From positions 1 through 39,797 of IMG/VR virus record IMGVR_UViG_3300034071_000198: a stretch of 39,797 bases of DNA. The stretch is one strand, 5' to 3'. This DNA comes from a virus. Positions within the stretch are counted from its first letter, which is position 1. Each line of letters begins with the position of its first letter. A program made the translations under genes and the position numbers. Of this stretch, positions 1 through 39,797 are shown piece by piece. Below the pieces are notes generated by a model. The model worked only from the letters and a program-made list of their open reading frames with translations. It was not told the origin of the DNA and searched no databases.

Positions 1-1543
1 TTTCTGTTGTTCCTTCTGGAATTGTCTGAAAGGCTATGTCAACGCCATCAATAACGCGGAACATATCTATGTCACCTTGCAGTACATCCTCAAGACGAAT
101 CTTGATACGCTTCCATGCCTTATTCTCAAAGGTATCAAAGCGGATAATGCCTGTTGTAATTTCACCAGACTCAACAAAGTTAGTCTGGGACTCAACCCAT
201 AGTCCAGAGTTCTCAACAGTAAATGCTTTGTGGTCATTAGCAAATGTAGCAATGGACCAGACTGCACCAGTTATGCCTGATGCATAAACATCCTTGGCAT
301 AGGCATACTTGCCACTACTTAGTGGCGCACCAAGGTTGATTCGGATAAGTCCTGAGTATCCATCTACTTCGCTATTGACACCAGCATAGATAAACTCATT
401 GCTTGCAGTAAAGGCATAGATGTCATAGTCAGATTCATAAACCAATGGACCGTAAGACAGATTACCTTCGGCATCGGCAATAGCAATACGCACGCCTCGG
501 CTAGTACCAACAGCAACAAATGTACCAAGGTATCCATATAGGGCTGTAAGTTTTTCTCCTCGTGGCAAAACAAGTACTGTTGTCATGGTGCTAAGAGAAC
601 CTGCATTATCTACAGCAATCTTAAGGGCTAAGCCTTCATCACCTGAGAATCCACCAACATAGATAGCAGCGCTAGACTCTGTAATACCCATGAATCTAAA
701 TCCAATAGGCAAGGTACTACTTCCGTTTACAGCGGTAAGTGTACTGATGTTAATGCTTGAGCCTGTGTTGCGTACCAACTCATAGACGAATGTGTTTCTG
801 GCTGTGTCTGTAAAGGCAAGCATAAAGCGTTGCTTGACATAGGCAATAAATGCAGAGGTAGCATTGGCTGTGTTGATAGCGTAGTCCTGATGTAGCGCAG
901 GGCTGACTGCATCAAATGAATAACGCCATACCTTTGTAGGTGTAACCAACATAAGGTCGTTACCACCCATGGTGCCATAGAGAATTTCTTCTGTGATTTG
1001 GGTGTTGTTAATAACTGTCGTTGTTGTGCCAGCGGTAGTAGTAAGAGTCACGCGGGCTGTAACGGCTGCTGAGCCAGTCACCTTGACGAGATACTCAATA
1101 CCACTAATGATGGTTGAGAACACGCCAGAGCGAGCAGTGGATGCCTGTGACAATGATGTTGAGTGGAGCAGTTGCAACTGTCCTGGTGTCCATGGGTCAA
1201 TGCCTACTGAGTCAGAAAACTGAAACTTAACCTCATCAGGTGTGCCAACAATAGGCTCCTGGTATGTGATGCCACCACCTAAGTGGAAGGATGACTGCGA
1301 GCGAATCCAGTAGCCTGAACCAGATAGTGATTGCTCACCTGGGTCACGGGCATTGTCAAAGCGCTGAGTACGAAACTCTGCAGTCTGTCGCTTGTACGGA
1401 GTCTGGTCTGTGATGGCATAGATGAACGGCATGCCACCAATAGCAACATCAAACTTGTATGTGGTTGGGTCATAGTAAGTAGCGGTCCGACCAGACAGGT
1501 CAATTATCACGCGCTCGGATATATCAGGTGGGCGACTTGCCAC
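1..1543 (-). CDS. Tail nozzle-like virion protein, N-terminal part (gene crosses the window ends)
   Basis: An open minus-strand frame begins at a GTG at 1543, with an AAGGAGA ribosome site a few bases upstream, and runs off base 1. It continues in the same sense at 39797-39230, giving one protein of about 655 residues. The part here is rich in beta-strand repeats of aromatic and glycine residues (YGYLGTFVAVGTSRG type), suggesting a beta-propeller. In podoviruses the nozzle protein (T7 gp12 class) has this size, fold and place beside fibres. Function is inferred from composition and context; a tail hub or receptor-binding protein is the alternative. It lies downstream of the fibre genes and upstream of the lysis cassette once the genome is circularised. 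Confidence 0.6.
   Translation of the reverse strand, partial: MASRPPDISERVIIDLSGRTATYYDPTTYKFDVAIGGMPFIYAITDQTPYKRQTAEFRTQRFDNARDPGEQSLSGSGYWIRSQSSFHLGGGITYQEPIVGTPDEVKFQFSDSVGIDPWTPGQLQLLHSTSLSQASTARSGVFSTIISGIEYLVKVTGSAAVTARVTLTTTAGTTTTVINNTQITEEILYGTMGGNDLMLVTPTKVWRYSFDAVSPALHQDYAINTANATSAFIAYVKQRFMLAFTDTARNTFVYELVRNTGSSINISTLTAVNGSSTLPIGFRFMGITESSAAIYVGGFSGDEGLALKIAVDNAGSLSTMTTVLVLPRGEKLTALYGYLGTFVAVGTSRGVRIAIADAEGNLSYGPLVYESDYDIYAFTASNEFIYAGVNSEVDGYSGLIRINLGAPLSSGKYAYAKDVYASGITGAVWSIATFANDHKAFTVENSGLWVESQTNFVESGEITTGIIRFDTFENKAWKRIKIRLEDVLQGDIDMFRVIDGVDIAFQTIPEGTTE
21..146. repeat. Terminal direct repeat, left copy (126 bp)
   Basis: Bases 21-146 are identical to 39672-39797 as far as the end of the window. 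The 20 bases before the exact match (1-20 versus 39652-39671) match at 15 positions. The repeat lies inside the tail nozzle-like gene, not near terminase, which fits overlap from a circular or circularly permuted assembly better than a functional packaged end. Confidence 0.9.
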
Positions 1544-1602: not shown

Positions 1603-1842
1603 TTAAGAAAGGGCTGCTTTAAGTTCTTCAAGCGATAGACCAACTGATGCTAGTTTTTCAGCAACTGTTGGTTCGGCAGGAGGTGTTGGATTATGTGCAG
1701 CCAACACTGTTTCTGCTTCTTCCCTAGTAGAAGGACCACTTACTACTAAGTCCTCACCTTTTTGATATAAATCAAAACCTGTTTCAGATTTAAAAATATC
1801 TGAGTCAAGTCTTTTGCTTGGCATTTGAAATAGGTGTTCCAT
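1603..1842 (-). CDS. Small fibre-associated helper-like protein (79 aa)
   Basis: Start ATG at 1842 follows AGGAGCGTAATT, which overlaps the end of the upstream fibre gene. The protein has a short beta-rich start, then a segment ending in AHNPTPP, then a helical C-terminus LASVGLSLEELKAALS. It is a paralogue of the 92-residue protein at 3669-3947: both carry a SG-x-(S/L)T-(R/K)EEA segment, an AHNP motif and the same type of C-terminal helix. Both sit directly downstream of a fibre-like gene. A fibre chaperone or fibre-bound cap is a reasonable guess, but no named family is recognised. Confidence 0.6.
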   Translation of the reverse strand: MEHLFQMPSKRLDSDIFKSETGFDLYQKGEDLVVSGPSTREEAETVLAAHNPTPPAEPTVAEKLASVGLSLEELKAALS

Positions 1843-1844
1843 AA

Positions 1845-2462
1845 TTACGCTCCTAGGTAAGTCATATAAAATGCTGCATAAACTGTTGGTGATGCGGTAT
1901 TATCATTTCGTATTGCAAACTCAATGTAATCCCCAGCAACAAGATTTACAACTCTTGAACCTGTTATTGATTGATTATTGCTAGCCATATTTGCTGCTTG
2001 TTGCATAAATCCTTGGTTGCCGCCTGGAGAACTTCCGTTTTTGTAATAGAATAATGTGAAACGAGTGCTTGAACCAACATCTAAAAAGGCAGCACCAGTT
2101 AAAAGATACTTTCCACCCAAGCCGCTTGGCACGGTAAATCTTGTTGTGTTTGTTGAGTTGTCGTGGAAGTTATTAGTATCTGCTATTTCCGAAGTAAAAG
2201 GTACAAGCAAGTCCACATTTGCTGTCATTGAAATTGTGCCTGAACTTCTTTCGCACATAGCACCAACAAAACTAGGACTAGCAGGTGTAGCCCATTTAAT
2301 TCCACCAGTAACGCTAGAGTCAGCAGTAAGGACTTGGTTGTTGCTTCCTACGGCTACACGAACAGGTGTATCGGCAGCATTACCTGCAATTAAATCACCC
2401 TTAGCATCAATAAGTGTTTCTTGAATACCCGAGAATGGTACGGGAAATACGCTAGATGACAT
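1845..2462 (-). CDS. Fibre-like protein with jelly-roll-type C-terminal domain (205 aa)
   Basis: The start overlaps the upstream stop as TAATG, with GGAGATTAACTA as ribosome site. Residues about 15-60 form the recurring fibre motif KGDLIAG...VAVGSNNQVLTAD...IKWATP. The rest resembles the C1q/TNF-like jelly rolls of phage adhesins: FHDNSTNTTRFTVPSGLGGKY followed by beta strands and a final TYLGA. The same domain ends the 299-residue protein at 3947-4846. A trimeric receptor-binding fibre tip is inferred. The last codons (CTAGGAGCGTAA) also provide the ribosome site of the next gene. Confidence 0.7.
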   Translation of the reverse strand: MSSSVFPVPFSGIQETLIDAKGDLIAGNAADTPVRVAVGSNNQVLTADSSVTGGIKWATPASPSFVGAMCERSSGTISMTANVDLLVPFTSEIADTNNFHDNSTNTTRFTVPSGLGGKYLLTGAAFLDVGSSTRFTLFYYKNGSSPGGNQGFMQQAANMASNNQSITGSRVVNLVAGDYIEFAIRNDNTASPTVYAAFYMTYLGA

Positions 2463-2764
2463 TAGTTAATCTCCACTCCGCTAATATGGAAGTCAACTGA
2501 TGTAGATGATGCGCTTCCTTTGATTGTTTGGTTTGCAGGCAATACCTGCTTTAAGTCAAAAAATGCTGACGAGTTTGCTGACACTGCTACTGACCCTAGT
2601 AGGTCAATATCATTGAGCAATACGCTAGCAGTTACTGCTGATGTTGTTGGGTTGCAGATAACAATGTTAGTTATCACTGCTGTAGTTCCAGCAGGTGTTG
2701 TGTACACCGTTGTGCTTGTTGTTGCTGCTGCTGTACGAGCCAGCACTTTACTTACTGTAGCCAT
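2462..2764 (-). CDS. Small beta-sandwich tail protein (100 aa)
   Basis: This compact protein is rich in Thr, Ser and Val, with the pattern TTVYTTPAGTTAVITNIVIC...DLKQVLPANQTIKGSAS...VDFHISGVEI. Such domains are common as stand-alone proteins or fibre modules in phage tail loci and are predicted to be beta sandwiches. The exact role, whether decoration or receptor contact, is not known. It starts at ATG 2764 with AAAGGTAG upstream, and its stop overlaps the start of the next fibre gene. Confidence 0.6.
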   Translation of the reverse strand: MATVSKVLARTAAATTSTTVYTTPAGTTAVITNIVICNPTTSAVTASVLLNDIDLLGSVAVSANSSAFFDLKQVLPANQTIKGSASSTSVDFHISGVEIN

Positions 2765-2788
2765 TAGTTACTACCTTTCGTTATTAGA

Positions 2789-3001
2789 TTAGGATAAAAG
2801 AAGTTTTGCTTCGTCTGCAGTAATACCAAGACGAGCAAGTAAAGCAGTGCGAGCAATTTCATCTTGTTCACGCTTGGCTTGCTCTGCAATCAAAGATTCT
2901 TCTCGCGCTTGCATCTCTGCTAATTCCTCAGCAGTAAGTGGCACAAGAGTTTCTTCTCCTGTTTCACAGTTTACTTGTAGTGATTCCATTTTTATGTCCA
3001 T
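2789..3001 (-). CDS. Small helical protein paired with the upstream fibre gene (70 aa)
   Basis: The gene overlaps the end of the 225-residue fibre gene by 10 bases. Its first part carries acidic heptad-like segments (EELAEMQAREESLIAEQAKREQ), and it ends in ARLGITADEAKLLLS. That ending resembles the C-terminal helix of the other two small fibre-paired proteins (1603-1842 and 3669-3947). An alternative ATG lies at 2989; neither start has a strong ribosome site, so translational coupling is likely. A fibre-assembly or tail-assembly helper is inferred from position and the shared terminus. Confidence 0.5.
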   Translation of the reverse strand: MDIKMESLQVNCETGEETLVPLTAEELAEMQAREESLIAEQAKREQDEIARTALLARLGITADEAKLLLS

Positions 3002-3669
3002 CCGTATAGAGTTGCGCGAGTACCAGCAGCGTGATTGCCTGCATTTGAATAGAGTTTAATGCTTGTAATAGCAGCAGTATTTTTCCAACGACCCCAACCA
3101 GAACCAAAGCCAGGAGCATCAGTCCAAGAGCCACCAGTAAAAACCATTCCTTTATGCAGTGTTGTTGCCTTGTAATTAAAAAATGTCATTTCAATAGAAC
3201 TAAGAGAATTTGCTTGTGCTTGACCACACCAAATATTTCCTAGTTCAATTTGACTTTGAGAGTTTTGTCCTTCTAATGTGACCGTTGCACCTGGTCCTGC
3301 GTATTTTGACATAGTAGAAAAACTGTAATTTCCAGCAGTGTCACCATTTACTTGAACATAAAAAGCAGCACCATTAAATGATGCGCTAGCAGCAGTTCCA
3401 GAGATTACTATTTTTAAGTGATTGTATGTTGACGGGATAGAACTGAATGTAATATCTGCTGTAGATGTTGTTAGTGTTGTATCAGCAATCTGTGTCATTG
3501 CTCCACTTGAAACTGTAGCCCAAGCGGGAATACCACCTGAAACAGACAATACCTGACCAGTAGAACCAATGCCTAAGCGTGCTGGTGTTGCAGCAGCAGA
3601 GGCATAATAAGTATCACCCGTAGTTGTGAGTAACCCATCAATGTTTGCTACATCTCTACTGCGTGTCAT
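2992..3669 (-). CDS. Fibre-like protein (225 aa)
   Basis: The start overlaps the upstream stop as TAATG after GGGAGTAACTA. Residues about 10-50 contain the shared fibre motif (ARLGIGSTGQVLSVSGGIPAW). The rest is a widespread phage C-terminal domain with ADTTLTTSTADITFSSIPSTY near its start, NGDTAGNYSF in the middle, and a WKNTAAITSIKLYSNAGNHA stretch before a final ATLYGWT. This domain is typical of short tail-fibre or appendage tips. Function as a receptor-contact protein is inferred. Confidence 0.7.
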   Translation of the reverse strand: MTRSRDVANIDGLLTTTGDTYYASAAATPARLGIGSTGQVLSVSGGIPAWATVSSGAMTQIADTTLTTSTADITFSSIPSTYNHLKIVISGTAASASFNGAAFYVQVNGDTAGNYSFSTMSKYAGPGATVTLEGQNSQSQIELGNIWCGQAQANSLSSIEMTFFNYKATTLHKGMVFTGGSWTDAPGFGSGWGRWKNTAAITSIKLYSNAGNHAAGTRATLYGWT

Positions 3670-3947
3670 TAGTTACTCCCTAGTCCAAGTGCTTTAAGGT
3701 CATCTGTGGTTAAACCAAGCGCTGCAAGTTTTGCTTCTGCTGCAGCCTTTGCTGCTTGTGTTTCATTTTCTTTGATAATTGGGTCAGGCGGGTTATGAGC
3801 ATCTAACAATGTTTGTGCTTCTTCTTTTGTTAAATCTCCGCTAACCCATAAATATCCATCTTCAATATAAAGAGAACAATTTGGATTCTCTTTCTCAAAG
3901 AGTAAAGAATCAAGTGGCTTTGTAACTAAATCAAATGAGTGTTTCAT
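3669..3947 (-). CDS. Small fibre-associated helper-like protein (92 aa)
   Basis: This is a paralogue of the 79-residue protein at 1603-1842. Residues 1-50 share the DSLLFE...LYIEDGYLWVSGDLTKEEAQ pattern, followed by an AHNPPDP motif. An Ala/Lys-rich helix then leads to LAALGLTTDDLKALGLGSN. The start ATG overlaps the TAA of the 299-residue fibre gene, whose last codons (GGGAGCATAA) hold the ribosome site. Pairing with the fibre gene suggests a chaperone or cap, but this is inference. Confidence 0.6.
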   Translation of the reverse strand: MKHSFDLVTKPLDSLLFEKENPNCSLYIEDGYLWVSGDLTKEEAQTLLDAHNPPDPIIKENETQAAKAAAEAKLAALGLTTDDLKALGLGSN

Positions 3948-4846
3948 TATGCTCCCAAGTATCCTATGTCGAAGCGCCCTGCTTCTAGATTGCGCGAAGT
4001 TGTTGCTGTTTGAACAACCTGTAGTTGGACATAATCCCCAACTGCTAAATCAAGAATAGCCCCAAAACTAAGTTGAGTGCGATTTATGTTTGAGTCTCCT
4101 GTACCAGTTACATTGTAATAACCGTAACTTGACCCATTGATAGCGTTGCCATTCACATTGATTCTTGTGTAAAAATTAGGTACTACATCTACACCCAAAG
4201 TTCCAGTAACTAAGTACTTTCCTGCTTTACCACTTGGAATAGTCATTCGACTTGTGTTAGTTGATGTACTGTGAAAACCATCACTGTCAAAATTTTCATT
4301 GGCAAAGTCAACTGTTGTAAGTGTACTTGCAGTAATTGATTGACTGCCTGATACATAAGCACTTGCACCAACAAATGATGCTGCGGGTGCAGCACCCCAA
4401 GTAGGAACTCCACCAGATACAGTCAATAGTTGACCAGTTGAACCAACACCTAAACGACCTACCGCTCCAGCAGATGTACCAACAATCAAGTCACCATTAG
4501 CAGTTACGGTAGATAGTGGTACTGCTCCAGTTACAGAGAACGCATTGACTGTAGTAACAGTTGCAATGTCTCCAGCAACAAGTGCTGTTATGCCAGTAAT
4601 AGATGTACCGTTGGTTGCTGTGTAATCAGAACCTCTTACTTGCAGTACGCCGTTGATAAAGAATTGTTCCTGTCCTGGAGTATAAGCAAGAGTTGTAGAT
4701 GAGTCGCTACTACCAGTTAGTGATGTCTCACCACCTGATGCAGTCTTTACCCAAGTAGTAATACTTGAAGAAGTTGCTGCTGCTCCTTGAGCGCCTAACC
4801 CTGCGACAGTATCCCAGGAGGTTCCGTTATATCTTTTGACTGCCAT
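3947..4846 (-). CDS. Fibre-like protein with jelly-roll-type C-terminal domain (299 aa)
   Basis: The N-terminus begins MAVKRYNGTSWDTVAG, a small attachment motif found at the start of many modular phage fibres. Residues about 30-110 form a beta-rich shaft (FFINGVLQVRGSDYTATNGT). Then comes the shared motif GDLIVGTSAGAVGRLGVGST, and finally a jelly-roll-like domain with FHSTSTNTSRMTIPSGKAGKY that ends in GYLGA. That final domain is homologous to the one in 1845-2462. The ribosome site GGGAGCATACTAAT lies over the end of the upstream gene. An adhesin role is inferred. Confidence 0.7.
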   Translation of the reverse strand: MAVKRYNGTSWDTVAGLGAQGAAATSSSITTWVKTASGGETSLTGSSDSSTTLAYTPGQEQFFINGVLQVRGSDYTATNGTSITGITALVAGDIATVTTVNAFSVTGAVPLSTVTANGDLIVGTSAGAVGRLGVGSTGQLLTVSGGVPTWGAAPAASFVGASAYVSGSQSITASTLTTVDFANENFDSDGFHSTSTNTSRMTIPSGKAGKYLVTGTLGVDVVPNFYTRINVNGNAINGSSYGYYNVTGTGDSNINRTQLSFGAILDLAVGDYVQLQVVQTATTSRNLEAGRFDIGYLGA

Positions 4847-4847
4847 A

Positions 4848-6845
4848 TTAGTATGCTCCCATAAGTGTCATAGTGCGTAGGTCAGGGTCTGTTTCGCTAG
4901 ACTCATCAATCCACACATCGCCTGTTTCTGGAGATGATGGAGTTGTTGTTCCAACAAAGATTCTTTTTCCTGGGTCAGCATCTGTTACTGTGATTGGTGA
5001 AACTACAACAGTTCCAGTTGTTGCTGTGCTTGTACCCATTCCATCAAAGTCAATGAAATCATAAGTTGCAGCAGCGCCACCATCAATCTTGACTTGGCTT
5101 CCGCCTGATGGAGCAGCAATCCATTGCAATCCAGTAGTAGTTGCACTTGCTACAGATAGTAGATAACCATTGGTTGATGCCACTGTAAGAATTGCAGAAC
5201 TGTCTGCGCCTGTGCCAACAATCAAATCACCTTTGGCGTTTGTATCAAGTCCTAGAGTTACACTGCCAGATGTTCCCCCACCTTGCAATCCATTTCCTGC
5301 TACTACTGCGGTTATATCTCCAGTAGATGTAAAGACTTGCCATGATGATGAGCCACCATTCCAGACATACATGTTGTAATCTGTAGTGTTGTAATAGATA
5401 ACGCCATTGGTTAATGGGTTGCCATCATTGTCAACTGTAGGTGGTGTTGACTTTGGACCAAGGTAACGGTCATCAAAAGAATCCCAAGCAGCCTCTGCTG
5501 ATGTAGCACTTGCTGCTGCGCTTGTTGCAGATGTAGCCGCTGCTGTTGCAGATGCTGCTGCAGAAGTAGCAGAAGTAGCAGCAGCAGATGCAGATGTAGC
5601 AGAAGCCGTTGCCGATGAAGCAGCAGATGTTGCGCTTGTGGCTGCAGCGGTTGCTGATGCAGATGCGCTTGTTGCTGATGTAGCAGCATCTGCAGCGGAT
5701 GCTGCAGCAGCAGATGTAGAAGCAGCAGCAGAAGCAGCACTTGTTGCTGCAGCCGTTGCACTTGCTGCAGCGCTAGTAGCACTTGTTGCAGCAGCAGTTG
5801 CGCTGTTAGCAGCAGAGGTTGCATACCCTGCGATTGTTGCGACAGATGCAGCAGCAGTTGCAGCCGAAGCAGCAGCGCTGGTAGCACTGGTAGCAGCAGC
5901 CGTAGCAGATGCACCAGCGCTTGTAGCGCTAGTTGCTGCAGCAGTAGCAGAAGCCGCTGCTGAGGTAGCACTTGTTGCAGCAGCGCTTGCGCTGGTTGCA
6001 GAAGCAGAAGCAGATGATGCAGATGCTGTTGCGCTAGATGCAGCACTGGTCGCTGATGTTGCAGCACTTGTTGCGCTAACTGCAGCAGAGGCTGCACTAA
6101 TAGCAGCAGATGTTGCTGAACCAAGGATACTATCTACATAAATCTTAGGTGTAGCAGATGAGTCAACCATACCTGCGCTGGATAGACCAGTAATAACTGG
6201 ACTGCCTGAGATAGTAGGGCTAACAAAAGTTGCAGCAGATGCTGTGAATGAACCAGTGAATGTGCTAGTTGAAATAGTAGAACTTGTTATAGTTGCAGAT
6301 GTAACTGTTCCACCAGTAATAGTGGCAGTTGAAGTTACTGCTCCACTGATAGTAGCGCCAGCAATGATTGGTGTAGTAAGAGTCTTGCGTGTTAATGTCT
6401 GCTCTTTAAGAGTACCAACCACAACACCATCGCCAGTTTGAATACCGTGAACATGTGTCTGATTAGCAGCAATAAGAATTGTCTGGTCAATGTCATAACC
6501 ACGAGCAGCAATGTGATTTTCTGATTCACGGAAGTCGCGACCTGAAACACCATGTCTTACGACAGCACCAGCAGAGTGGGCTACAGCCTGTGTATTGTCA
6601 GAGCCACGAATTACACTAAGCGTTGTTCCACTACCAGCGGTTACTGTAACAACTTCTTCTTTAGATGTATCTGGGTCAACAATAAGAGTGTATGGGTAAT
6701 TAGTTGGGAAACCAGATACTGAACCAACGATAAACGAAGTGTTCGCCTGTCCCTGTGATTGTGCGGGAATTGATGAACCGAGCGCGGTTTCAACTGCTGT
6801 TGAGGAGTAGTACCGCGCTGGGGAGCCTGGGTCGCCTGCTGCCAT
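4848..6845 (-). CDS. Long tail fibre with Ala/Ser/Thr-rich repetitive shaft (665 aa)
   Basis: Residues 1-130 form a beta-rich N-terminal domain (PNYPYTLIVDPDTSKEEVVTV is typical of fibre attachment regions). Residues about 140-215 contain short beta-helix-like repeats (TISGAVTSTATITGGTVTSA). Residues about 240-450 are almost only Ala, Ser and Thr in SATSAAASATAAAT units, as in lambda Stf-type fibre shafts. A conserved module (AWDSFDDRYLGPKSTPPTVD and a YNTTDYNMYVWNG segment) follows, then the shared GDLIVGTGADSSAIL motif. It is the longest fibre and heads the fibre block, so it probably anchors the others. Start ATG at 6845 has AAGGCAG upstream. Confidence 0.8.
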   Translation of the reverse strand: MAAGDPGSPARYYSSTAVETALGSSIPAQSQGQANTSFIVGSVSGFPTNYPYTLIVDPDTSKEEVVTVTAGSGTTLSVIRGSDNTQAVAHSAGAVVRHGVSGRDFRESENHIAARGYDIDQTILIAANQTHVHGIQTGDGVVVGTLKEQTLTRKTLTTPIIAGATISGAVTSTATITGGTVTSATITSSTISTSTFTGSFTASAATFVSPTISGSPVITGLSSAGMVDSSATPKIYVDSILGSATSAAISAASAAVSATSAATSATSAASSATASASSASASATSASAAATSATSAAASATAAATSATSAGASATAAATSATSAAASAATAAASVATIAGYATSAANSATAAATSATSAAASATAAATSAASAAASTSAAAASAADAATSATSASASATAAATSATSAASSATASATSASAAATSATSAAASATAAATSATSAAASATSAEAAWDSFDDRYLGPKSTPPTVDNDGNPLTNGVIYYNTTDYNMYVWNGGSSSWQVFTSTGDITAVVAGNGLQGGGTSGSVTLGLDTNAKGDLIVGTGADSSAILTVASTNGYLLSVASATTTGLQWIAAPSGGSQVKIDGGAAATYDFIDFDGMGTSTATTGTVVVSPITVTDADPGKRIFVGTTTPSSPETGDVWIDESSETDPDLRTMTLMGAY
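5480..6130 (-). repeat. Ala/Ser/Thr-coding repeat tract of the tail fibre
   Basis: About 650 bases of degenerate GCA/GCT, ACT/ACA and TCT/AGC codons encode repeated SATSAAASATAAAT-type units in the fibre shaft. Low complexity on both strands produces long antisense open frames made of Ala/Val or Leu/Gln, which I treat as artefacts. The tract could expand or contract and so change shaft length. Confidence 0.75.
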
Positions 6846-6854
6846 TTATCTGCC

Positions 6855-7748
6855 TTATCTCTGGTAGTGGGAACGAAGTGGATGTTGACGGCGCTGGTTG
6901 TCCGCTACTTCATTTAAACGCTGCTGGTAAATGTTGTATAGGAATCTGGAAGCGTTCTGTCCAGAACCTACTGGTGTTACGCCATCAAAAATATCTGCTG
7001 CTGCAGATTGTGGACCAAGGCGTGATGGGTCTAAGAATGAAACCATACGGAAGGCTGCGCCATAGATGACGACATCTTCTGAGTATGATGGTAAACCTGT
7101 AGTTGTTGCGTAATCATCATCTTCATCTACTAACAATGTAGGGCGCTTCTTGTATGCCACATGCACTGTCTGTCCAGGAGTAATACCTGAGTAAATACTG
7201 ATGCTGCGAGCAGTTGCAAAAGCATCTGTGTCTGCTGTGTGGTCTAGTGTGTAGCCACGAACTGGAAACCATTCACGAGATGGTCCAACTGTTGAGTAAG
7301 ACACACCAAGAACTGCCTGGAAATCTGCTGGCAACTGGTAAGTAGTGCGTGCTGCGATGAAGGGGAAGTCAGTTGTGCCAGTGGCAAATACCATTGGGTA
7401 CATAGCATCAATAGTGTTATTGATTGCCTTCTTGATTTCTGCTCGTGGAAAGATTGGGCTGGCAATTACCTTTGCATTTTCTTCGTGTGCTGCAGGTGTG
7501 GTGCCACGCTGTCCACGACCCCATGGGGTAAGTGTCAATGTGTTGGCTACATTGTCTGTACTGTTGACAAATACAATTTCATCGTTAATCTGTACAAAGC
7601 CACGACCCATACCTGTTGCATCTGCAATAGATAGTGTTGTTGTAGTGGATGATGCAGGTGATGTTAGCCAACTGGTTGGCTCAACATTGTCTGTGTATCC
7701 ATGAAGAACTGAATCAACACGCTCAATTAAATCTAAATATGAACTCAT
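6855..7748 (-). CDS. Putative head-tail adaptor or tail tubular protein (297 aa)
   Basis: The protein starts SSYLDLIERVDSVLHGY, followed by a beta-rich domain containing WGRGQRGTTPAAHEENAKV (residues about 75-95). A helical segment with RAEIKKAINNTIDAMYP comes next, then a beta region (TTYQLPADFQAVLGVSYS). Its last 60 residues are helical with a basic end. Proteins with this mixture in podovirus neck regions act as head-tail adaptors or tail tube parts (T7 gp11 class). I assign it by size, position between head genes and fibres, and composition; no catalytic motif is visible. Confidence 0.5.
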   Translation of the reverse strand: MSSYLDLIERVDSVLHGYTDNVEPTSWLTSPASSTTTTLSIADATGMGRGFVQINDEIVFVNSTDNVANTLTLTPWGRGQRGTTPAAHEENAKVIASPIFPRAEIKKAINNTIDAMYPMVFATGTTDFPFIAARTTYQLPADFQAVLGVSYSTVGPSREWFPVRGYTLDHTADTDAFATARSISIYSGITPGQTVHVAYKKRPTLLVDEDDDYATTTGLPSYSEDVVIYGAAFRMVSFLDPSRLGPQSAAADIFDGVTPVGSGQNASRFLYNIYQQRLNEVADNQRRQHPLRSHYQR

Positions 7749-30704: not shown

Positions 30705-31055
30705 ATGAAGCCTGAGTACCATGAAATTATGGGCGTAAGAATAATGGGCAAGCGCCATGGCAAAACCATCACCCGTTATTTCTTAAGATACAACCCAAGA
30801 ATTATGAGCAAGGGTAAGTGCCGAGGCATAGACACCGAAGTATTTTACCCACCAAAGGACTTGTTCACACGCGATGAGGAGCGCATGATTGACAAGATGT
30901 GTTCCGACTGTCCGATAAAGCAGGCGTGCCTGGAGTGGGGCTTAGCCCATGAAAGGTACGGAGTATGGGGTGGCACCACACCTGCGATGCGTACCCGTCT
31001 GCGTAGTCGTGTCGGTTGGGATGTGACAGACCCAAACAATAACCCTGTGTTATGA
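30705..31055 (+). CDS. WhiB-family iron-sulfur transcription regulator (116 aa)
   Basis: The four conserved cysteines are C39, C66, C69 and C75 (GKCRGIDTEVFYPP, then MCSDCPIKQACLEWGL), and GVWGG (residues 86-90) with a basic tail (TPAMRTRLRSR) completes the WhiB signature. WhiB proteins bind a [4Fe-4S] cluster and the primary sigma factor. They are limited to Actinobacteria and their phages, which identifies the host class. It is the last early gene. The start is the ATG of TTAAGACATG, one codon after the transglycosylase TAA. A role in host or late-gene control is inferred. Confidence 0.9.
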   Translation: MKPEYHEIMGVRIMGKRHGKTITRYFLRYNPRIMSKGKCRGIDTEVFYPPKDLFTRDEERMIDKMCSDCPIKQACLEWGLAHERYGVWGGTTPAMRTRLRSRVGWDVTDPNNNPVL

Positions 31056-39229: not shown

Positions 39230-39797
39230 TTAGACAACAGTACGAGCAACAACGGTAACAATTCCTCCATAGCCAGAGAACCCAGACTGTGGTGGAGTTG
39301 TTCTTGTAAATGTAACTTGTTCGATAATAGATTCTGTAGGCTCTCCGCCTGCAGTGAAGTCCTGGATGATGACAGTTTCACCTTGTGCTTCTAGTTGCTC
39401 AAGGGCTTGAAGGCGGGCTAGTGCATAGCCATCGTAGCCAACAATCTGTCGGTTTCTATCTGTCTCTTTATCAAACAAGAAGATAGGAATCTGCAGTACG
39501 CGAGCGCGAGTAGGTGTAGGCAAAGCCTTGACTGAGTATCCGTAGATGATAGCGCCCTTTGTGGGGTCAGTATCATTTCTGTTTAAACGGAACTTGAACT
39601 GTGCTTCGGCTGATACCTCTGGAAATACTGAGGCTAGGTCGTAGTCATAGATTGCAGTCGTTCCCTCTGGGATTGTCTGAAAGGCTATGTCAACGCCATC
39701 AATAACGCGGAACATATCTATGTCACCTTGCAGTACATCCTCAAGACGAATCTTGATACGCTTCCATGCCTTATTCTCAAAGGTATCAAAGCGGATA
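39230..39797 (-). CDS. Tail nozzle-like virion protein, C-terminal part (continues at base 1)
   Basis: The frame enters at 39797 and continues the gene seen at 1-1543, and the shared 126 bases encode the same residues in both copies (ENKAWKRIKIRLEDVLQGD and onward). The C-terminal part has PTKGAIIYGYSVKALPTPTR and YDGYALARLQALEQLEAQGE, and ends in TPPQSGFSGYGGIVTVVART. It may contact the tail or the fibres. Just beyond the exact repeat the two copies differ (PEGTTE versus PEGTTA), suggesting two strains in the assembled population. Confidence 0.6.
   Translation of the reverse strand, partial: IRFDTFENKAWKRIKIRLEDVLQGDIDMFRVIDGVDIAFQTIPEGTTAIYDYDLASVFPEVSAEAQFKFRLNRNDTDPTKGAIIYGYSVKALPTPTRARVLQIPIFLFDKETDRNRQIVGYDGYALARLQALEQLEAQGETVIIQDFTAGGEPTESIIEQVTFTRTTPPQSGFSGYGGIVTVVARTVV
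39672..39797. repeat. Terminal direct repeat, right copy (126 bp)
   Basis: This is identical to 21-146. The repeat identifies the window as a complete, circularly closing contig. See the left copy for the divergence of the flanks. Confidence 0.9.

Follow-up and report, generated by a model that had tools for sequence, protein, structure and literature searches.

Organization of the fibre island

The window analysed here is the whole of IMG/VR virus record IMGVR_UViG_3300034071_000198, a stretch of 39,797 bases, and our subject is a minus-strand island in which tail fibre genes are followed by genes for small proteins, here called helpers. The island is bounded upstream by the gene for an SU10-adaptor-like protein (6855–7748, minus strand; Pfam SU10_adaptor, E 1.9e-9) and downstream by gene T (2–1543, minus strand), which encodes a virion/tail protein and continues at the other end of the window. 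Both are conserved anchors of a region that varies among relatives. Between them lie eight genes in the order H, G, F, E, D, C, B and A, all on the minus strand. As the initial annotation had noticed, three fibre-like genes each have a small neighbour with a similar ending (the pairs G/F, E/D and B/A), and the C-termini are those it quoted.

Fibre G (3947–4846) consists of a GDLIVGT...GSTGQLLTVSGG linker followed by an LGA-class C1q/TNF-like tip, and it matches residues 503–686 of phrog_38058. Fibre E (2992–3669) carries a tip of the YGxx class with the terminus LYGWT, and B (1845–2462) is a short fibre in which a GDLIAGN...NNQVLTAD linker precedes a C1q/TNF-like tip ending YLGA. The first fibre of the operon, H (4848–6845), lies beyond the range covered by the initial annotation (1603–4846); it is a long tail fibre of 665 amino acids (aa) with an Ala/Ser-rich repeat shaft and the GDLIVGT motif (phrog_38058 tail fiber, E 4e-171). 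The GDLIVGT...GSTGQxLTVSGG motif previously assigned to four fibres is recovered as a GDLIVGT...GQxLTV stretch in G (residue 118), H (residue 539) and B (residue 22), and in degenerate form in E (residue 18). The proposal that two fibres share a C1q-like tip also held: the tip domain is common to B and G at 34% identity. An AlphaFold model of the B tip (residues 60–205) has a predicted local distance difference test (pLDDT) score of 85.8 and has structural matches over 124–135 residues to 9eul, the central spike of phi812 (Z 17.1), to 5hba (Z 15.1) and to the TNF-family protein EDA (Z 14.0), with C1q-family heads at Z ~15. At the level of the model, the predicted C1q/TNF-like jelly-roll fold of this tip is confirmed.

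The helper genes follow their fibres closely. Helper F (3669–3947) is of the AHNP type and ends in the hairpin LAALGLTTDDLKALGL, helper D (2789–3001) is of the NxETGE type and ends in RLGITADEAKLLL, and helper A (1603–1842) is again of the AHNP type and ends in LASVGLSLEELKAAL; all three C-termini form short helical hairpins of one kind. The helper start overlaps the fibre stop by 1–10 nt in G/F and E/D, with G and F in different reading frames, and B and A are separated by a 2-nt gap. A and F are paralogous, with about 38–39% identity and the AHNP motif in both, as had been recognized from the outset. Helpers are 70–97 aa long, and the hairpin accounts for roughly 25 aa with the pattern LGhTxDEhKxLL. 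In the predicted fold of helper A, a beta-alpha-beta-beta-alpha unit precedes two short helices (pLDDT 75.5, about 63 in the hairpin). Fold searches with this model gave nothing meaningful, the matches being KH-like fragments and pieces of reverse transcriptases at Z ≤4.5. The remaining gene, C (2462–2764; phrog_1276, E 5e-6), encodes a 100-aa protein that is constant in the cassettes of many relatives and is not exchanged with the tips.

A C-terminal hairpin common to the helpers

To place these genes among relatives, we collected 299 loci (numbered with the prefix L) from IMG/VR by scanning for the two anchor proteins, helpers F and A, and fibre B. Relatives have 4.0–6.3 kb and 4–10 genes between the two anchors, in many combinations. 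A hidden Markov model (HMM) built from the last 26 residues of the helpers was then searched against the 5144 open reading frames (ORFs) of these loci. It gave 233 strong matches, none of them in a gene longer than 140 aa; 232 are C-terminal, and the shared C-terminus of the small genes is therefore beyond chance. De-duplication left 154 hairpin genes, of which 150 immediately follow a gene of ≥120 aa, usually with their start overlapping its stop. Among small genes, a GQxLT-linker fibre is the immediate upstream neighbour of 90/153 with the hairpin versus 16/1453 without it. No helper–fibre fusion and no hairpin in any gene longer than 140 aa were found among the 5144 ORFs.

When a hairpin position is occupied by the same residue in two helpers, their codons differ in 54% of cases, against a random expectation of 66%, which indicates that the hairpin is conserved as protein and not as DNA. 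On the strength of this codon diversity, a mere DNA repeat was rejected. A trailing GGN/GSN is associated with an overlapping next gene (22/23 versus 75/123, p 6e-4), and this tail probably encodes the ribosome-binding site of that gene.

Pfam and NCBIfam contain no family for the hairpin-bearing helpers. A candidate relationship of the hairpin to the 'CAP repeat' of 8vd6 was rejected because the PDB match sums five repeats, none of which is significant singly (i-E about 30). A tblastn search of INPHARED returned no D-type helpers and two marginal matches for XkdW-type helpers, and in phage E7 an HMM search located a single D-type helper, which follows a fibre with a YGxx tip. A weak, single-pattern scan of 84,980 bacterial and archaeal genomes with profile A1 yielded no relative.

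Other small genes occur in the same islands. Tiny proteins ending in EQSTPNLP or similar stand behind fibres in L065/L067, L096, L101 and L117, and may constitute a second helper family that lacks the hairpin. A protein of 100–128 aa with the pattern MAHFAxxDxNNxV recurs in the fibre islands (L079, L080, L094, L106, L126, L129 and L300) and has no Pfam match in the copy tested (L106). Streptomyces phage Immanuel3 has a related fibre N-terminus, yet no helper.

Helper N-domains are paired with fibre tips

The helpers were clustered by BLAST, and eight N-domain clusters have the hairpin in common. The largest are NxETGE (83 members, including D), XkdW-like (37), AHNP (16, including A and F), TRDEII (10) and TSKEINL (6), with smaller ones besides. 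Each of the following is associated with a class of upstream tip, the tip end classes having been set after the data were seen: AHNP helpers follow a single tip cluster, C1q-like and ending LGA, in 16/16 cases; XkdW-like helpers follow tips ending EIGA in 34/37; TSKEINL helpers follow tips ending (L/M)GS in 5/6; and NxETGE helpers mostly follow tips ending YGxx. Across all clusters, the adjusted mutual information between helper cluster and tip cluster is 0.50 (0/1000 permutations, a guide and not an exact probability).

The association is specific to the tip. Upstream tips are homologous in 50% of comparisons in which the helper N-domains are homologous versus 9.9% where they are not (875 pairs against a permutation maximum of 350; 0/1000). 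The stem of the same upstream fibre has no significant association with the helper N-domain (54 versus 48%), and that of the downstream gene is weak (22 versus 17%). Within the AHNP class, tip distance correlates with helper distance (Mantel r 0.39, 0/10000). Conversely, in the non-redundant set each of the 19 fibres whose C-terminal tip is of the LGA class precedes a small gene; 15 of these genes have the hairpin, 2 the AHNP domain only and 2 are XkdW-like. Pairs of the AHNP type are also present in phages with other backbones, where they sit between a minor tail protein gene and lysin/peptidase genes (L213 and L218–L220).

Tip and helper are exchanged as a block

Locus L067 is 89–99% identical to the window in DNA outside the exchanged blocks, and it records two natural swaps. 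In the G–F cassette, identity ends at 4382, after the GDLIVGT...TVSGGVPTWGAAPA segment of G (4382–4495, minus strand), and returns at 3757, at the hairpin module of F (QAAKAAAEAKLAALGLTTDDLKALGLGSN; 3669–3757, minus strand), which is homologous in L067 whereas the rest of the gene is not (89% DNA identity over 3757–3646). The intervening block encodes a C1q tip and an AHNP helper in the window, and a YGVN tip and an NxETGE helper in L067. In the B–A cassette, identity ends at 2317 (...NNQVLTAD) and returns at 1611, in the last codons of A. This second swap covers the tip and the entire helper, whereas that in G–F covers the tip and the helper N-domain. Gene C is 100% identical in L067 although the tips on both sides of it have been replaced. 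The L067 homologue of H has 613 aa as compared with 665 in the window, and the repeat number of the Ala/Ser-rich shaft may vary.

The same behavior is seen in 652 pairs of fibres with near-identical stems. Tip and helper have both changed in 614 of these and both been kept in 9; the helper is kept with a diverged tip in 29, and in no case is the tip kept with a changed helper. Separately, L194 and L195 have identical helper N-domains and stems and tips that are only 42% identical, a possible case of exchange within the tip itself.

Taken together, the tip-specific pairing, the L067 block swaps, the Mantel correlation and the near-identical-stem comparison strongly support the earlier proposal of an adhesin-plus-helper cassette whose parts are exchanged together, and the small genes are co-inherited with the upstream tip. 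The initial annotation had attributed the repeated cassettes to duplication, and this part is not supported. B–A and G–F are 34% identical in the tip and 38% in the helper N-domain, whereas B–A and the pair of another phage, L134, are 61% identical in both the tip and the whole helper. Because the nearer counterpart of B–A is thus the pair in L134 and not G–F, we reject duplication in situ, and these comparisons fit better with repeated acquisition from a shared pool.

Host and genome context

The termini of the record overlap by 146 bp (1–146 versus 39652–39797; 126 exact, with 6 mismatches among the first 20), which makes it probable that the assembly is circular and complete; gene T runs across both of its ends. 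A WhiB transcription factor gene (30705–31055, plus strand; E 1.5e-15) indicates an actinobacterial host. This gene and the similarity to OX376640/OX376641, seen at both the DNA and protein levels, place the virus near phages E7 and F5. These Nanopelagicales phages infect 'Ca. Planktophila', and a variable island of 5 kb around their tail fibre has already been described (PMC10202952). Elsewhere in the genome, a proteasome-subunit-like phage protein (8763–9326, minus strand) matches Pfam Proteasome just above the cut-off (E 2.7e-5) over its N-terminal 50 residues. In some relatives (L083–L086), a 69-aa membrane-like protein (RSFSKSLSYRIFGTLSSF) is encoded immediately before gene T.

A model for the tip–helper cassette

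The explanation that we favor, and consider probable as a whole, is that this is a virus of freshwater actinobacteria whose receptor-binding cassette island is diversified by trading each tip together with its cognate helper. An exchangeable fibre would consist of a conserved stem, the GDLIVGT...GQxLT linker and a variable tip, with a small cognate helper translationally coupled to it. The helper N-domain, which comes in several unrelated types with one tip class each, would grip the nascent tip, and the C-terminal helical hairpin common to all helper types would trimerize the helper and thereby keep three folding tips in register, after which the helper would depart or remain as a cap. Phages would trade the tip and the helper N-domain as a single block, and the linker and hairpin are probably the recombination points because sequence homology resumes there on either side. 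From their position and coupling, together with the tip-specific pairing and the exchange in blocks, the small proteins are most likely cognate assembly chaperones or caps.

Several observations weigh against this explanation. The model of helper A is of only middling confidence, particularly in the hairpin, and in sequence and fold searches the helpers matched no solved chaperone. Loci L001–L059 were retrieved partly by the hairpin peptide itself. The pairs compared are not independent, so that the permutation counts above are guides rather than exact probabilities. A few LGA tips (L005, L231) precede helpers without the hairpin, which is thus not indispensable, and the 29 near-identical-stem pairs depart from strict co-exchange.

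The helpers could instead be structural proteins that remain on the tip in the virion as receptor-contacting adhesin caps, like T-even gp38-type adhesins. Tip-specific co-inheritance fits such a role equally well, chaperones remain bound in mature Mu and Ur-lambda virions (PMC9608196), and a transient-cap role has been proposed for the chaperones of A5/V22 (PMC10579305). However, the helper N-domain is linked to tip class and is not hypervariable, and the shared hairpin, the stop/start coupling and a slot in common with Phage_tail_APC suit assembly better; we regard the adhesin cap as possible but rather unlikely. That the small genes are passengers, which travel with the tip through adjacency and not interaction, appears very improbable. 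Adjacency alone would produce some co-inheritance, and the downstream gene does give a weak signal, but downstream fibres, although just as adjacent, correlate far less with the helper, the upstream fibre's own stem is uncorrelated, tip-class pairing is nearly exclusive and the pairs persist in unrelated phage backbones.

A further alternative concerns the hairpin only, which might be retained chiefly as a DNA recombination anchor with little function as protein. The return of homology in L067 exactly at the hairpin, the link between GGN/GSN tail codons and overlap with the following gene (compatible with a ribosome-binding site for that gene) and the existence of helpers without the hairpin all agree with this idea. 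We nevertheless think it improbable, since the codon comparison points to conservation of protein rather than DNA and the hairpin is absent from every gene longer than 140 aa.

The cognate-helper explanation has several consequences. Receptor-binding genes are poorly understood in phages of the abundant, hard-to-grow freshwater actinobacteria, and the correspondence between helper type and tip class offers a means of finding and classifying those fibre tips that are too variable in their own sequence, and indicates which gene to co-express for tip folding. It also describes a functional pair that is exchanged below the level of the gene, with definable joints. Whether the helpers amount to a superfamily of miniature fibre chaperones that is widespread and has so far had no name, with a universal C-terminal hairpin and interchangeable tip-reading domains from which the tip class can be predicted, we judge to be an even bet. 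If so, the linker and hairpin would be the standard joints by which unrelated phages gain new receptor-binding tips.

Comparison with known systems

The helpers resemble several small proteins encoded next to tail fibres, and the Pfam families among these do not match A, D or F by profile. Tfa/Caudo_TAP (PF02413), which functions in Mu and lambda tail fibre assembly, is likewise a small gene behind a fibre and co-inherited with the tip, and the helpers have this position and inheritance; the best E-value among 24 D-type members, 0.029, is not meaningful. XkdW (PF09636), from PBSX and Bacillus phages, is also a small gene adjoining a tail fibre, but it has no known function (PMC8190038) and most helpers here have the additional hairpin. 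Its profile matches the N-domain of EIGA-class helpers weakly (3/20, best 5.6e-4), with L214 at the cut-off (2e-5), and XkdW-type helpers occur only in relatives of the window. In L096, the slot behind the fibre is occupied by Phage_tail_APC (PF16778; 2e-17), a named tail assembly chaperone family.

Exchange of fibre–chaperone pairs between phage families is known from the fibre and DUF4376 modules of Alteromonas phages A5/V22 (PMC10579305), where, as here, a pair is common to unrelated phage families. The helpers do not match DUF4376, and the exchange differs in that it occurs below the level of the gene, with junctions in the fibre linker and helper hairpin. The E7/F5 island belongs to the same phage group and is the same variable region; the passages of that account consulted here describe the island without a helper or a pairing rule (PMC10202952).

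The closest parallel is the gp24–gp25 pair of cyanophage Pam3 (PMC9608196), which shares the TNF-like tip, the adjacent genes and the combination of a variable N-domain with a conserved C-terminal helical part. In Pam3, the variable N-domain of gp25 binds the TNF-like fibre tip and the conserved C-terminal helical domain trimerizes. The same architecture is found here, with eight N-domain clusters that share a hairpin of two predicted helices, and neither profile searches nor fold searches with the small, low-confidence helper model gave a match to gp25. The present helpers differ from gp25 in being only 70–97 aa long with a hairpin of roughly 25 aa, in having several N-domain types per phage family and in occurring as up to three pairs per genome. 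Pairs of fibre and chaperone are already known; the present helpers, in which one C-terminal hairpin is joined to several different front domains, are absent from Pfam and NCBIfam.

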